Source: Hydrogenobacter thermophilus TK-6 (GTDB lineage: Bacteria > Aquificota > Aquificia > Aquificales > Aquificaceae). From it: a stretch of DNA of 64,000 bases. Every line of letters begins with the position of its first letter. Position 1 is the stretch's first letter. Below, piece after piece: positions 56,242 to 61,348 of this stretch. Made by a program: the position numbers and the translations under genes. The notes beneath the pieces were generated by a model. That model was not told the DNA's origin and made no database searches. It saw only the letters and a list, made by a program, of their open reading frames with translations. The stretch covers positions 1,302,001-1,366,000 of the forward strand of contig NC_013799.1 in the NCBI RefSeq assembly GCF_000010785.1, given 5' to 3'.

Positions 56242-56889
56242 ATGAAATTAGGCATTCTTGTGTCAGGCAGAGGCTCCAACCTGCAAGCTATTGTGGACGC
56301 AATAGAGTCCGGCAAGCTACCATGCAGTATAAGTATAGTCATCTCTGACAGAGAAAAGGCTTATGCTCTTGAAAGATGCAAAAAGCACCATATACCTCAT
56401 GTGGTAATAAAGAGAAAAGACTTTGGTAATGTGCAGGACTTTGAGGAGGAGCTAATCAGGAGTTTAAGACAAGCTCAGGTAGATCTTGTGGTGCTGGCAG
56501 GTTTTATGCGCATTTTATCTGCACACTTTATAAGAGCTTTTCCCATGAAGATCATAAATATACATCCGTCCCTTACACCTGCCTTTGTGGGAAAAGATGC
56601 ACAAAAGCAAGCTCTTGAGTATGGTGTTAGGATAACAGGCTGTACAGTTCACTTGGTCACAGAAGAGCTGGACAGCGGTCCAGTTATAGTTCAGGCTTGT
56701 GTGCCAGTGCTTCCGGACGATACAGAAGAGACGCTCTCTGAGCGCATACTTGCTTACGAACACAGGGTATTACCTCAAGCCATCAGGTGGATGGCAGAAG
56801 GAAGGGTGAAGGTGGAAGGTAGGAAAGTTCAAGTAATAGGAGCAAAGTACGGCACGCTTCCTGTAAATCCGCAGCTGGAAGTCTTTTGA
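56242..56889 (+). CDS. purN: Phosphoribosylglycinamide formyltransferase
   Basis: PurN transfers formyl from 10-formyltetrahydrofolate in purine synthesis. The motif [16 protein letters not shown] is near the start; the catalytic Asn-His-Asp are in [14 protein letters not shown] and [10 protein letters not shown]; 215 aa, slightly longer than the Escherichia coli enzyme. TATACT ends 8 nt before the ATG and no SD sequence is visible. Confidence 0.95.
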
Positions 56890-56918: not shown

Positions 56919-57890
56919 ATGAGCCAGAGTTTGGCTGAGAAGTTTTACTTTTATATGAAACTGGGTAGGGAGCTGGAGATAAGAGCAAAGGAAGAGTATA
57001 CGAAGGGGAATATAGGAGGGTTTTTGCATCTTGATATAGGGCAGGAAGCTGTCAGCGTGGGTGCTGTTTTTGGATTTGGTAAGGGGGACCTCTTCTGTCC
57101 TTACAGGGAGCATGTGCTTGCCCTTGCGAGGGGAATGGACCCAAAGCTCATAATGGCTGAGCTTTTTGGTAAAATCACGGGTGTATCAAAGGGTAAAGGT
57201 GGTTCTATGCATCTTTATGAGCCAAAGCTTGATTTTTACGGTGGAAATGCCATAGTAGGCGCGCATTTGCCTCATGCGGTTGGAGCTGCATATGCCAGAA
57301 AGTATATGGGAGAAAAGGCGGGAGTCCTTGCCATATTTGGTGACGGTGCTACCAACGGTGGAAGCTTTTTTGAGTCCATAAACCTGGCTGTCGTGTGGGA
57401 GGTGCCCGTACTATTCTTATGTGAAAACAACTTTTATGCCATAGGCACAAGGATAGATAGAGTTTCAGCCTTTAGGGACATATACTTAAAGGCAAAGGAT
57501 TACATGCCTGCCCTTCAGGTGGATGGTATGGATGTTTTTGCAGTTTACGAAGCTGTTGTTAACGCTAAAAAATATCTGGAAGATTATGGAAAGCCCTACT
57601 TTATAGAAGCCATAACTTACAGATATGAAGGCCACTCTATGGCTGACAAGGGTGATTACAGATCACCCAGGGAAATAGAAACTTTCAGAAAAAAAGACCC
57701 TATAGAGAACTTAAAAAACAAAGCTATGCAGATGGGATGGCTTACACCAGAACAGATAAGGATGATGGACGAAAAAATAGCACAAATAATAGAAGAGGCT
57801 GTGGAGTTTGCCTTAAACTCCCCCGAGCCAGACCTTGAGGAGCTATACAAGGACATATACTGCGGAGTATGTGCGGATGTTATACCGTGA
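56919..57890 (+). CDS. Pyruvate dehydrogenase-like E1 component, alpha subunit
   Basis: The thiamine-diphosphate motif GDGATNGGSFFESINLA, the EHV ALARG-type region and YEGHSMADKGDYRS match the E1-alpha chain of the pyruvate/acetoin/branched-chain dehydrogenase family; 323 aa. GGGAGGGAT lies 4 nt before the chosen ATG at 56919. It opens a four-gene cluster E1a-E1b-E2-E3. The oxo acid cannot be fixed from sequence; the E1 resembles the acetoin/pyruvate type. Confidence 0.9.
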   Translation: MSQSLAEKFYFYMKLGRELEIRAKEEYTKGNIGGFLHLDIGQEAVSVGAVFGFGKGDLFCPYREHVLALARGMDPKLIMAELFGKITGVSKGKGGSMHLYEPKLDFYGGNAIVGAHLPHAVGAAYARKYMGEKAGVLAIFGDGATNGGSFFESINLAVVWEVPVLFLCENNFYAIGTRIDRVSAFRDIYLKAKDYMPALQVDGMDVFAVYEAVVNAKKYLEDYGKPYFIEAITYRYEGHSMADKGDYRSPREIETFRKKDPIENLKNKAMQMGWLTPEQIRMMDEKIAQIIEEAVEFALNSPEPDLEELYKDIYCGVCADVIP

Positions 57891-58851
57891 TGCTATAAAC
57901 TTAGCCCTTGACCATGCTATGCAAGTAGACCCGAGAGTTATAATCCTTGGTGAGGATGTGGGTTTTTATGGTGGAAACTATAAGGTAACCGACGGTCTTT
58001 TTGCCAAGTACGGTGAGAAGAGAGTTATAGACACACCAATAGCGGAAAACTCCATAGTGGGAACAGCCATAGGCATGGCAATGATGGGTCTAAGACCGGT
58101 TGCGGAAATTATGACGGCGAATTTTTCCATGTTAGCGATGGACCAGATAGTAAACAACATGGCAAAGCTCAGATACATGAGCGGTGGGAAAATAGCTCTG
58201 CCAATGGTAGTGCGTATGCCTCAGGGTGTGGGTAGACAGCTTGCAGCTCAGCATTCCCAGAGCTTGGAACATATGTTTGCATCCATTCCAGGACTTTATG
58301 TTTTTTGTTCTTCTGATGCAACGGGTGCTTACCACACAACCCTGTATGCCATAAGGCTTGACGACCCTGTAATACTGCTTGAACATGTTCTTCTTTATCC
58401 TATGGACTTTGAATTTTATAAAGTGGAAAACTTTGACCCCTTCAAAGCAAGGATTTTAAGGGAAGGCAAAGACATAACTGTGGTGTCTTACCTTAAGATG
58501 GTTCACGATGTATTAAGAGCTTGTGAAAATTTAGAGAAAGATGGTATATCCTGTGAGGTGATAGAGCTTATATCCCTAAGACCCATAGATTTTGAAACCA
58601 TTTACAGCTCTGTGAAAAAGACCAAGAGGCTTGTGGTGGTTTACGAAGCGCCTAAAAGTTTTGGGCTCGGTGCGGAAATTTCAGCGAGAGTTTGCGAAGA
58701 GATGTTTTACTTTTTGGATGCACCACCCTTGAGGATAGCCGGCGAGGAAGTTCCCATCCCTTATAACAGAAAGCTGGAGCTTTCAGCCATACCTACACAG
58801 GAGAGCATATACAGGCAGATGCTAAGTTGGGGGAAAGGGCATGGATTATGA
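57877..58851 (+). CDS. Pyruvate dehydrogenase-like E1 component, beta subunit
   Basis: The start MLYRDAINLALDHAM matches E1-beta proteins, which begin near YREAIN; the ATG at 57877 overlaps E1-alpha by 14 bp. GEDVGFYGGNYKVTDGL, DTPIAENSIVGTAIGMAM and the C-terminal VYEAPKSFGLGAEI with AGEEVPIPYNRKLE are typical; 324 aa. With E1-alpha it forms the decarboxylating heterotetramer. The end overlaps E2 by 11 bp. Confidence 0.92.
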   Translation: MLYRDAINLALDHAMQVDPRVIILGEDVGFYGGNYKVTDGLFAKYGEKRVIDTPIAENSIVGTAIGMAMMGLRPVAEIMTANFSMLAMDQIVNNMAKLRYMSGGKIALPMVVRMPQGVGRQLAAQHSQSLEHMFASIPGLYVFCSSDATGAYHTTLYAIRLDDPVILLEHVLLYPMDFEFYKVENFDPFKARILREGKDITVVSYLKMVHDVLRACENLEKDGISCEVIELISLRPIDFETIYSSVKKTKRLVVVYEAPKSFGLGAEISARVCEEMFYFLDAPPLRIAGEEVPIPYNRKLELSAIPTQESIYRQMLSWGKGHGL

Positions 58852-60085
58852 GGTGGTGATGCCTCAATTTTCGGATACTATGGAGAGGGGGAAAGTGGTG
58901 CGCTGGCTCAAAAAGGAGGGCGATTATGTAGAAAAGGGTGAGGTTTTGGCTGAGATAGAGGCAGAGAAGGCAGTTATGGAGCTCCAATCCTTCAGAAGCG
59001 GTATCCTCAAAAAGATCACTGTAAATGAGGGCGAAGAAGTTCCTGTAAAAACCACCATAGCCATCATAGAGTTGACGGAAAAAAGACCGGTGGTAGAAAA
59101 GCCACAAGAAATAAAAAAACCTGAGGAAAAACCTGTGGAGAAGGTGGTAGAGAAAAAAGTGGAGGAAATTAAACCGGTGGAGAGAATTGAGCTACCACCT
59201 GGTCTCGCATCCGCTTATGCTAAAGTGTTGGCTTCCCAGTATGGCATAGACCTACAGGAACTTCAAAAGGAGGGAAGGCTGCCATCACCCGCTCATGAGA
59301 AAGATATAATGGAGCTTCTGAGTGAAAGGTACTTTACGCCAAAGGCACTGGAAACTTTAAGGGATTACCATCTGGACCCCAAAAGACTTGTGGAGTTTTT
59401 CAAAGGTGAGAAGATAACAGAGGACATGCTTTTGGAATACATTGAGGAGTTTAACATACCAAAGAGAGTCCCCATATCAAGCGTCCAAAAAAGCCTTATA
59501 GCAAACCTCACGAGAAGTATAAAGCATCCCCACTTTAGGATATACGAAACCTTTGACCTGTCTCTAATACCTTGGGATAAGGACATAACTCTTACCCACT
59601 GGCTTATAAAGATAGTGGGTGATGCCATGATGTACTTTGATAGGTTGAGGGCAACAGTTGAAGAAGATCACTATCTTATAACACCCAATGCGGATGTTGG
59701 AGTTGCCATATCTGTAGATGATGAGCTTTATGCTCCCGTTATAAGGAAGGTAAATAAGAAGAGCCTTTTGGAGATAGCTAAGGAGGCAAGGGAGCTAAGG
59801 GAAAAGGCTCAGGCAGGTAAGCTAACCCTTGAAGATGTAAAAGGCGGGACGCTGACTATATCCAACATGGGTATGTTTGGAATAGCTTCCTTTGATGCAG
59901 TGATACCTTACGGTCAGGTATGTATAGTGTCCGTTGGTGCGCTGGACGAGAACGGCAGGGCAAGTATAAACTTCACTTTTGACCACAGGGTAGTCAACGG
60001 TACGCATGGAGCGCTTTTTGTAAAGCACTTAAAAGAAAAGGTGCTTGACAGGAATTACATAAAGTCTCTAAAGCGAGGTTTGTAG
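58841..60085 (+). CDS. Dihydrolipoamide acyltransferase-like E2 component
   Basis: One lipoyl domain (1-78) has Lys43 in EAEKAVMEL as the lipoylation site. A charged Pro-Glu-Lys linker (88-125) and an E3/E1-binding-like helix pair follow. The catalytic domain (about 205-414) has VGVAISVDDELYAPVI, GTLTISNMGMFG and FTFDHRVVNGTHGALF. The active-site His is present; the Asp of the usual HRxxDG is Asn here (VVNG), which may slow or change acyl transfer. 414 aa. It overlaps E1-beta and abuts E3. Confidence 0.9.
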   Translation: MDYEVVMPQFSDTMERGKVVRWLKKEGDYVEKGEVLAEIEAEKAVMELQSFRSGILKKITVNEGEEVPVKTTIAIIELTEKRPVVEKPQEIKKPEEKPVEKVVEKKVEEIKPVERIELPPGLASAYAKVLASQYGIDLQELQKEGRLPSPAHEKDIMELLSERYFTPKALETLRDYHLDPKRLVEFFKGEKITEDMLLEYIEEFNIPKRVPISSVQKSLIANLTRSIKHPHFRIYETFDLSLIPWDKDITLTHWLIKIVGDAMMYFDRLRATVEEDHYLITPNADVGVAISVDDELYAPVIRKVNKKSLLEIAKEARELREKAQAGKLTLEDVKGGTLTISNMGMFGIASFDAVIPYGQVCIVSVGALDENGRASINFTFDHRVVNGTHGALFVKHLKEKVLDRNYIKSLKRGL

Positions 60086-61348
60086 ATGTTTGATTATGAT
60101 GTGATCATCTTAGGTGGTGGACTGGCCTACACTGCGGCAGAGATACTCAGAAACAAAGGCTTAAAGGTGGCGATAGTGGAGAAAAACAAGGAACATTTAG
60201 GGGGTGTTTGTCTTCACGAAGGATGCGTACCTACAAAGCTTTACCTCTTTGAAGCTCAAAAGATATACGATATGAAAAACTCAAGGCTTTTGGAATGGAA
60301 GGGTGGTGATGTAAAACTTAAAAGACTCGTAGAGTATAAAGAAAGACTTAGAAAGAAGCTCAGGGAAGACATAGAAAGGCTGCTCAAAGGTGTGGACATA
60401 ATTTACGGCGATGGTACCCTTACGGATAGGCATACGGTGGTGGTAGGAGAAAGGCAGATAAGGGGCAGATACATAATAGTGAATACAGGTAAAAGGCAAA
60501 CATGGGGCTTTGGACTTGAGCCAGATGGTAAGCGTGTAATCACCACAGATGAAGCTATCAATCTGGAGAGCCTGCCGGAAAAACTGCAAATAGTTGGGGA
60601 TGACTACATAGCCTTTGAGTTTGCCACCTTCTTTGCAGTGCTGGGTTCTCAGGTAAATCTTTACTTTGACAACCCAATGAGCTTTGCCCATACCAGCATA
60701 AAAAACAGATTCCTCAAAGAATTGGAGTTGCTGGGAATAGCCTTACACCCCATTAAGGACTTTAAGACGGAGAGCATTACATTGCTTGTTAAAAGAAGGG
60801 TGCCCAATTCGGAGTGTGTGGGTGATCTCATACAGAAAGATGAAAATAACCACATACTTGTTGATGCGCATTACGAGACCTCCATAAAGGATCACTACGC
60901 AGTAGGAGATGTTAATGGACTTTCCGAAACTGCTCATGCAGCGAGGATGCAATCCCTCATTGTCAGCAAAAGAATACTTGGGGAGAGAAGCTTTTACATA
61001 AGACCCGAAAATATTCCCTATGTGCTTTATACTGTCCCACTGTCCTACGCAAAAGTTGGATTAACAAAGATGGAGCTTGAAAGAAGAGGAATAAAGCATA
61101 CAGAAAAAAGCGTTAGCCTGAGAGCCTTCTCATCTTCTTACATACAGCACTCGGAGGATGGCATGTGCTTCCTTTACTTTGACAGCAGAGGCTTTCTTCT
61201 GGGGTGTGAGGTGCTCTCAAGGGGTGCTGGAGAGATAATATCAAGCCTGACCGTCTCTCTTTACTCTGAATTAAACATTAGCCACATGTCAAAGGTTTTG
61301 CTTCCTCACCCTACTTTAAGCGAGATACCCTTTTTGAGGCTCGTGTGA
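60086..61348 (+). CDS. Divergent dihydrolipoamide dehydrogenase-like E3 component
   Basis: The redox disulfide CLHEGC (Cys42, Cys47) and the C-terminal HPTLSE with its catalytic His-Glu pair are intact. The FAD motif is LGGGLAYTAAE in place of GGGPGGYxAA, and the NAD-binding motif reads IVGDDYIAFEFA where lipoamide dehydrogenases have GGGYIGLE. The protein is 420 aa, about 45 shorter than usual. It could still bind FAD and dihydrolipoamide, but NAD binding looks impaired, so a different electron acceptor or a structural role is possible (inference). It directly follows the E2 gene. Confidence 0.82.
   Translation: MFDYDVIILGGGLAYTAAEILRNKGLKVAIVEKNKEHLGGVCLHEGCVPTKLYLFEAQKIYDMKNSRLLEWKGGDVKLKRLVEYKERLRKKLREDIERLLKGVDIIYGDGTLTDRHTVVVGERQIRGRYIIVNTGKRQTWGFGLEPDGKRVITTDEAINLESLPEKLQIVGDDYIAFEFATFFAVLGSQVNLYFDNPMSFAHTSIKNRFLKELELLGIALHPIKDFKTESITLLVKRRVPNSECVGDLIQKDENNHILVDAHYETSIKDHYAVGDVNGLSETAHAARMQSLIVSKRILGERSFYIRPENIPYVLYTVPLSYAKVGLTKMELERRGIKHTEKSVSLRAFSSSYIQHSEDGMCFLYFDSRGFLLGCEVLSRGAGEIISSLTVSLYSELNISHMSKVLLPHPTLSEIPFLRLV

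Follow-up and report, generated by a model that had tools for sequence, protein, structure and literature searches.

An E3-like flavoprotein without a recognisable NAD site in the pyruvate dehydrogenase-type operon of Hydrogenobacter thermophilus

To our knowledge, every known E3 of the 2-oxoacid dehydrogenase complexes hands electrons to NAD, and a literature search found no paper mentioning both 'lipoamide dehydrogenase' and 'NAD-independent'. A known analogue is a flavin disulfide reductase in which NADPH use has been lost (PMC12796991); it is of the thioredoxin reductase type, with a CxxC motif, and passes electrons from ferredoxin to a disulfide, with its FAD at -448 mV. The protein described here, E3', is a lipoamide dehydrogenase-like flavoprotein of H. 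thermophilus and differs from this enzyme. As E3' has the E3 fold with a CxxxxC pair in the FAD domain, as opposed to CxxC in the NADPH-like domain, it does not belong to the FFTRs (ferredoxin-dependent flavin thioredoxin reductases). Its gene lies at positions 60086-61348 (plus strand) of the window, the 64,000-nucleotide stretch of DNA that was analysed. It encodes 420 aa, starts with an ATG immediately past the E2 stop codon and is the last gene in an E1alpha-E1beta-E2-E3 operon. E3' represents a genuine E3 subfamily that is conserved and has no recognisable NAD site, and to judge from its motifs a functional consequence of the missing site is likely.

E3' and the E3s (TIGR01350, e.g. Thermus 2eq6) are alike in fold, FAD residues, redox disulfide, His-Glu dyad, dimerisation domain and place in the PDH operon. 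Unlike them, E3' has the NAD GxGxxG motif, the ribose Glu and the Gly of GRxPN replaced, and it is about 45 residues shorter, partly because the beta-meander in its NAD domain is missing and partly because its C-terminus is reduced. In a profile search it remains below the TIGR01350 equivalog cut-off, with 229.6 versus 408.8 bits. PF07992 and PF02852 are above their cut-offs and, together with the fold search, give FAD, NAD-like and interface domains in E3 order, as in the class I flavin disulfide oxidoreductase superfamily. The AlphaFold model used, made from a 32-row alignment, has a pLDDT of 90.8 and a lipoamide dehydrogenase fold (a 12-row version was poor, with a pLDDT of 75). Its best PDB matches are lipoamide dehydrogenases, with 2eq6 of Thermus at the top (TM 0.90/0.83).

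The three motifs spelled out in the preliminary description were all found. The redox-active disulfide CLHEGC beside the flavin (residues 42-47, 60209..60226, plus strand) has both C42 and C47 in 12/12 orthologs, and the same holds for His408 and Glu413 of the catalytic motif HPTLSE (residues 408-413, 61307..61324, plus strand), which follows the HPTxSE pattern of the E3 dyad. The FAD-binding motifs are present as well. In the alignment, which covers 12 of the 13 orthologs, G10, G12, E32, C42, C47, K51, G135, E178, G274, D275, H408 and E413 are invariant. The FAD loop GGGLAY (residues 10-15, 60113..60130, plus strand) had been described as an altered glycine motif; it does lack one residue relative to other E3s and carries Ala or Ser at the last small position, but a functional alteration is weakly indicated, with E32, G135, G274 and D275 kept. 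Ala occupies the same column in 5 of 20 comparison sequences, where the NAD motif is not lost, and the change is minor. The short chain was likewise confirmed at 420 aa, but was dropped as stand-alone evidence, since an Omnitrophota E3 of 413 aa (L052) keeps an intact NAD motif (GGGSIGLE, GGRTPN). This protein resembles E3' in having PTKLYL after the Cys pair and a C-terminus of the form HPTLSE...FLR (31% identity over 412 columns), while its gene is not beside E1/E2 genes. Because it combines the same shortness, PTKLYL and C-terminal FLR with an intact motif, the loss of the NAD motif in E3' is probably secondary.

For the NAD site itself, 20 further flavin disulfide reductases, drawn from several phyla, served for comparison. 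The roles of the NAD and FAD positions are those which we take over from established E3-NAD complexes, e.g. human E3 (1ZMC). Instead of the NAD-binding GxGxxG/A, E3' has GDDYIAFE (residues 171-178, 60596..60619, plus strand), in which Glu178 is kept and GDD is found in 12/12 orthologs; the second glycine of this motif is Gly in 19 of the 20 comparison proteins and Ser in one. Two further changes lie beyond those first flagged. Phe194 (60665..60667, plus strand) sits where the ribose-binding acidic residue is expected, being F or L in 12/12 orthologs and mostly Glu in the 20 others, and Arg237-Arg238 (60794..60799, plus strand) replace the Gly-Arg of GRxPN, whose glycine is R or K in 12/12 orthologs and Gly in 20/20 comparison proteins. 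The earlier claim that E3' no longer uses NAD is thus well supported at the level of sequence, as three NAD determinants are substituted in each of the aligned orthologs, against an invariant FAD, disulfide and His-Glu set, and as the NAD core is relaxed in the E3' family alone.

This relaxation was seen by setting E3' beside the canonical lipoamide dehydrogenase (Lpd) from the 12 genomes of the alignment. In Lpd the NAD core is the best-kept part, in E3' it is among the worst-kept, with mean identities of 0.849 and 0.578, respectively. By part, the mean identity of E3' is 0.536 for the linker and NAD domain, 0.698 for FAD-N and 0.684 for the interface. The mismatch ratio of NAD core to rest is 1.32 (1.07-1.58) for E3' versus 0.69 (0.45-0.96) for Lpd, although 20-73 of 400 overlapping blocks in a sliding-block control match the observed contrast, making the relaxation only moderate by this test. 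For a close ortholog pair, dN/dS of E3' is about 0.04-0.22 across all domains, which indicates a gene under selection, and the invariance of GDD favours a new role over simple decay. Sequencing error, a pseudogene, chance or decay of one copy are excluded by the 13 genomes that keep E3', the low dN/dS and a GDD that never varies across the 12-sequence alignment.

The three genes upstream encode the E1alpha, E1beta and lipoyl E2 (with an acyltransferase domain) of a pyruvate dehydrogenase complex, and the operon is conserved. E1alpha is of the pyruvate dehydrogenase type (56919..57890, plus strand; PF00676, 2.9e-81). Its ORF opens at a TTG at 56886, but since orthologs begin at the ATG at 56919, the latter is probably the true start. 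Its nearest PDB match is human PDH E1alpha (252 bits versus 142 bits for BCKDH). It scores just under the TIGR03182 cut-off, making pyruvate a likely substrate, not a proven one. E1beta (57835..58851, plus strand; NF006667 above cut-off) overlaps E1alpha, with a TTG at 57835 and a second possible start at 57877, and has PDH E1beta as its nearest PDB match (271 bits). A branched-chain or acetoin substrate was rejected, as among solved E1 proteins those of PDH are clearly the nearest and the branched-chain enzymes lie clearly further away. The E2 acyltransferase (58841..60085, plus strand; PF00364, PF00198, family alignment) carries the lipoyl Lys in EAEKAVMEL. Its E3-binding domain has diverged: in two orthologs the Pfam match covers only positions 1-22 of 36, and the E2 of H. 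thermophilus has no match to this domain. The family also has a conserved extra segment of about 45 residues (TPKALELLKEY...) ahead of the catalytic domain. The catalytic motif is HRVVNG (His-x3-Asn-Gly), and most orthologs have HRVxNG, not HRVxDG; this Asn at the Asp position of HxxxDG was not read as marking a dead E2, since it also occurs in the E2p of Azotobacter and Pseudomonas.

E3' was found in 13 of 136 Aquificota genomes, all of them Aquificaceae, in three genus-level groups, and the orthologs are 53-74% identical. An alignment-based scan of 85,000 GTDB genomes, which was pattern-based and so not exhaustive, matched only the Aquificaceae orthologs and distant E3s, and a contig scan of genomes with a single E3' protein as query gave no match. 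Phylogenetic analysis of E3 proteins, as had been proposed, placed all E3' in one clade (100/100) with a stem length of 1.78 changes per column; it did not resolve a sister among the other E3s. Every E3' genome but one (12 of 13) also has an E1alpha ortholog; in the exception, G040, E3' sits at the end of a contig. Among family genomes lacking E3', an E1alpha occurs in G049 only, as a more distant homolog (46%); the others have none at the same threshold, including the congeners G025-G027, G037, G041 and G043. The absence of E1alpha wherever E3' is missing in the same genera suggests that the set was lost or gained together. In a closed genome (G057), about 286 kb separate E3' (1.03 Mb) from E1alpha-E1beta-E2 (1.32 Mb), so here the pair is retained without linkage. 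Another genome (G042) has a second E1alpha-E1beta-E2 set with no E3' gene adjoining (L068:3507-6679). The E3' operon also occurs on contig RFFP01000015.1 (L046), titled Acidobacteria MAG J001; it matches an Aquificaceae-family genome (G039), and the title looks wrong.

The H. thermophilus genome, a single contig of 1,743,135 bases that also encodes a protein matching the cytochrome c-552 of this species at 80/80 residues, was searched for further E3-like proteins. The second, canonical lpd that the preliminary description had suggested looking for is located at 1.098 Mb (L010:7562-8959). It belongs to the same superfamily as E3' (29% identity), but has 465 aa, all NAD residues intact and no linkage to E1/E2 genes. 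By eye, a PqqE-like radical SAM gene lies near this lpd, between two PqqC-like genes and followed by a PqqB-like gene (L010:9955-13386, 1.10 Mb). A 398-aa E3-like protein is encoded between sulfate adenylyltransferase and V4R-like genes (L011:4631-5827, 447.6-448.8 kb), with an intact NAD motif (GGGAAGCE) and a Glu replacing the Lys after the Cys pair (CIPKEG). A MobA-like nucleotidyltransferase apparently fused to a C-terminal heavy-metal-associated domain (L009:7291-8103, 1.209 Mb) lies close to the HMA-MerA gene (L009:4683-6302). With Lpd, HMA-MerA and the 398-aa protein encoded as well, E3' is excluded as the sole E3 of the genome.

The canonical Lpd could serve the E1-E2 complex, which counts against an NAD-independent E3'. 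E3' would then be structural or regulatory, like an E3-binding or pseudo-E3 subunit, with NAD-linked oxidation done by Lpd elsewhere, and the presence of Lpd in 60/64 family genomes and in all 13 with E3' fits this. Still, we consider it unlikely: it leaves the invariant Cys pair, His-Glu dyad and FAD residues without a reason, and Lpd is found equally in genomes lacking the complex, so that it has other partners. A possible client is the glycine cleavage P protein, whose gene is present in H. thermophilus. According to PMC10052474, the glycine cleavage system does not appear operational in this organism.

The co-occurrence of E3' and E1, the lipoamide dehydrogenase fold, the contrast with Lpd in the NAD core and the diverged E3-binding domain of E2 argue instead for an NAD-independent E3'. 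On this sequence evidence, E3' is most likely a dedicated dihydrolipoamide-oxidising subunit of the pyruvate dehydrogenase-type complex whose flavin is reoxidised by another acceptor, to which we assign a probability of about 0.5. Going by the conserved residues and the fold, E2-bound dihydrolipoamide would be oxidised by the Cys42-Cys47 disulfide with help from the His408-Glu413 dyad, and the electrons would pass to FAD as in lipoamide dehydrogenase. The NAD pocket appears remodelled, with NAD(P) binding presumably gone, and the reduced flavin would be reoxidised elsewhere. Counting against this reading, no obvious gene for an alternative electron carrier was found within the E1-E2-E3' operon, and Lys51 and Glu178, the pair expected beside flavin and nicotinamide, are kept. 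The invariance of this pair and the Rossmann beta-alpha-beta core still predicted in the NAD-like domain would also suit an E3' that still uses NAD(P) through altered binding, e.g. with the two Asp holding a metal, more slowly or at a different potential. As all aligned orthologs have Asp at the second glycine, lack the ribose Glu and carry Arg/Lys at the Gly of GRxPN, this seems rather improbable. Least probable is that E3' shuttles reducing equivalents between lipoamide and a disulfide or dithiol of another protein (a thioredoxin-like relay or lipoate proteins of sulfur metabolism) with the flavin as a side store; the dithiol chemistry of E3' is intact and lipoate-binding proteins for sulfur oxidation are a known feature of Aquificae (PMC6067878), but no such gene is linked and the constant partners of E3' are E1 and E2.

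Regarding the acceptor of an NAD-independent E3', the potential of lipoamide is -290 mV (PMC6067878) and that of H. thermophilus ferredoxin 1 is -485 mV (PMC10052474). Since forward flow would be uphill by about 195 mV, a more likely acceptor than the low-potential ferredoxin is one above -290 mV, be it a quinone, a further redox protein, a disulfide or O2. H. thermophilus also encodes lipoate ligase/transferase-type proteins, and a PFOR/OGOR-type N-terminal domain is above cut-off at three places in its genome; an earlier study treated its PFOR as an anabolic enzyme (PMC4030962). A tentative proposal, for which we put the chances at somewhat below even, is a pyruvate dehydrogenase complex with an NAD-independent E3 that passes electrons to a quinone, a redox protein or another acceptor; with it, an autotroph whose NAD pool is highly reduced could oxidise pyruvate without making NADH. 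If true, a conserved E3 subfamily lacking the NAD site would parallel, on the lipoamide side, the pyridine-nucleotide-independent thioredoxin reductases. As H. thermophilus is a cultured model, this is directly testable, and it would reopen pyruvate handling in rTCA-cycle autotrophs beside the ferredoxin-linked PFOR.
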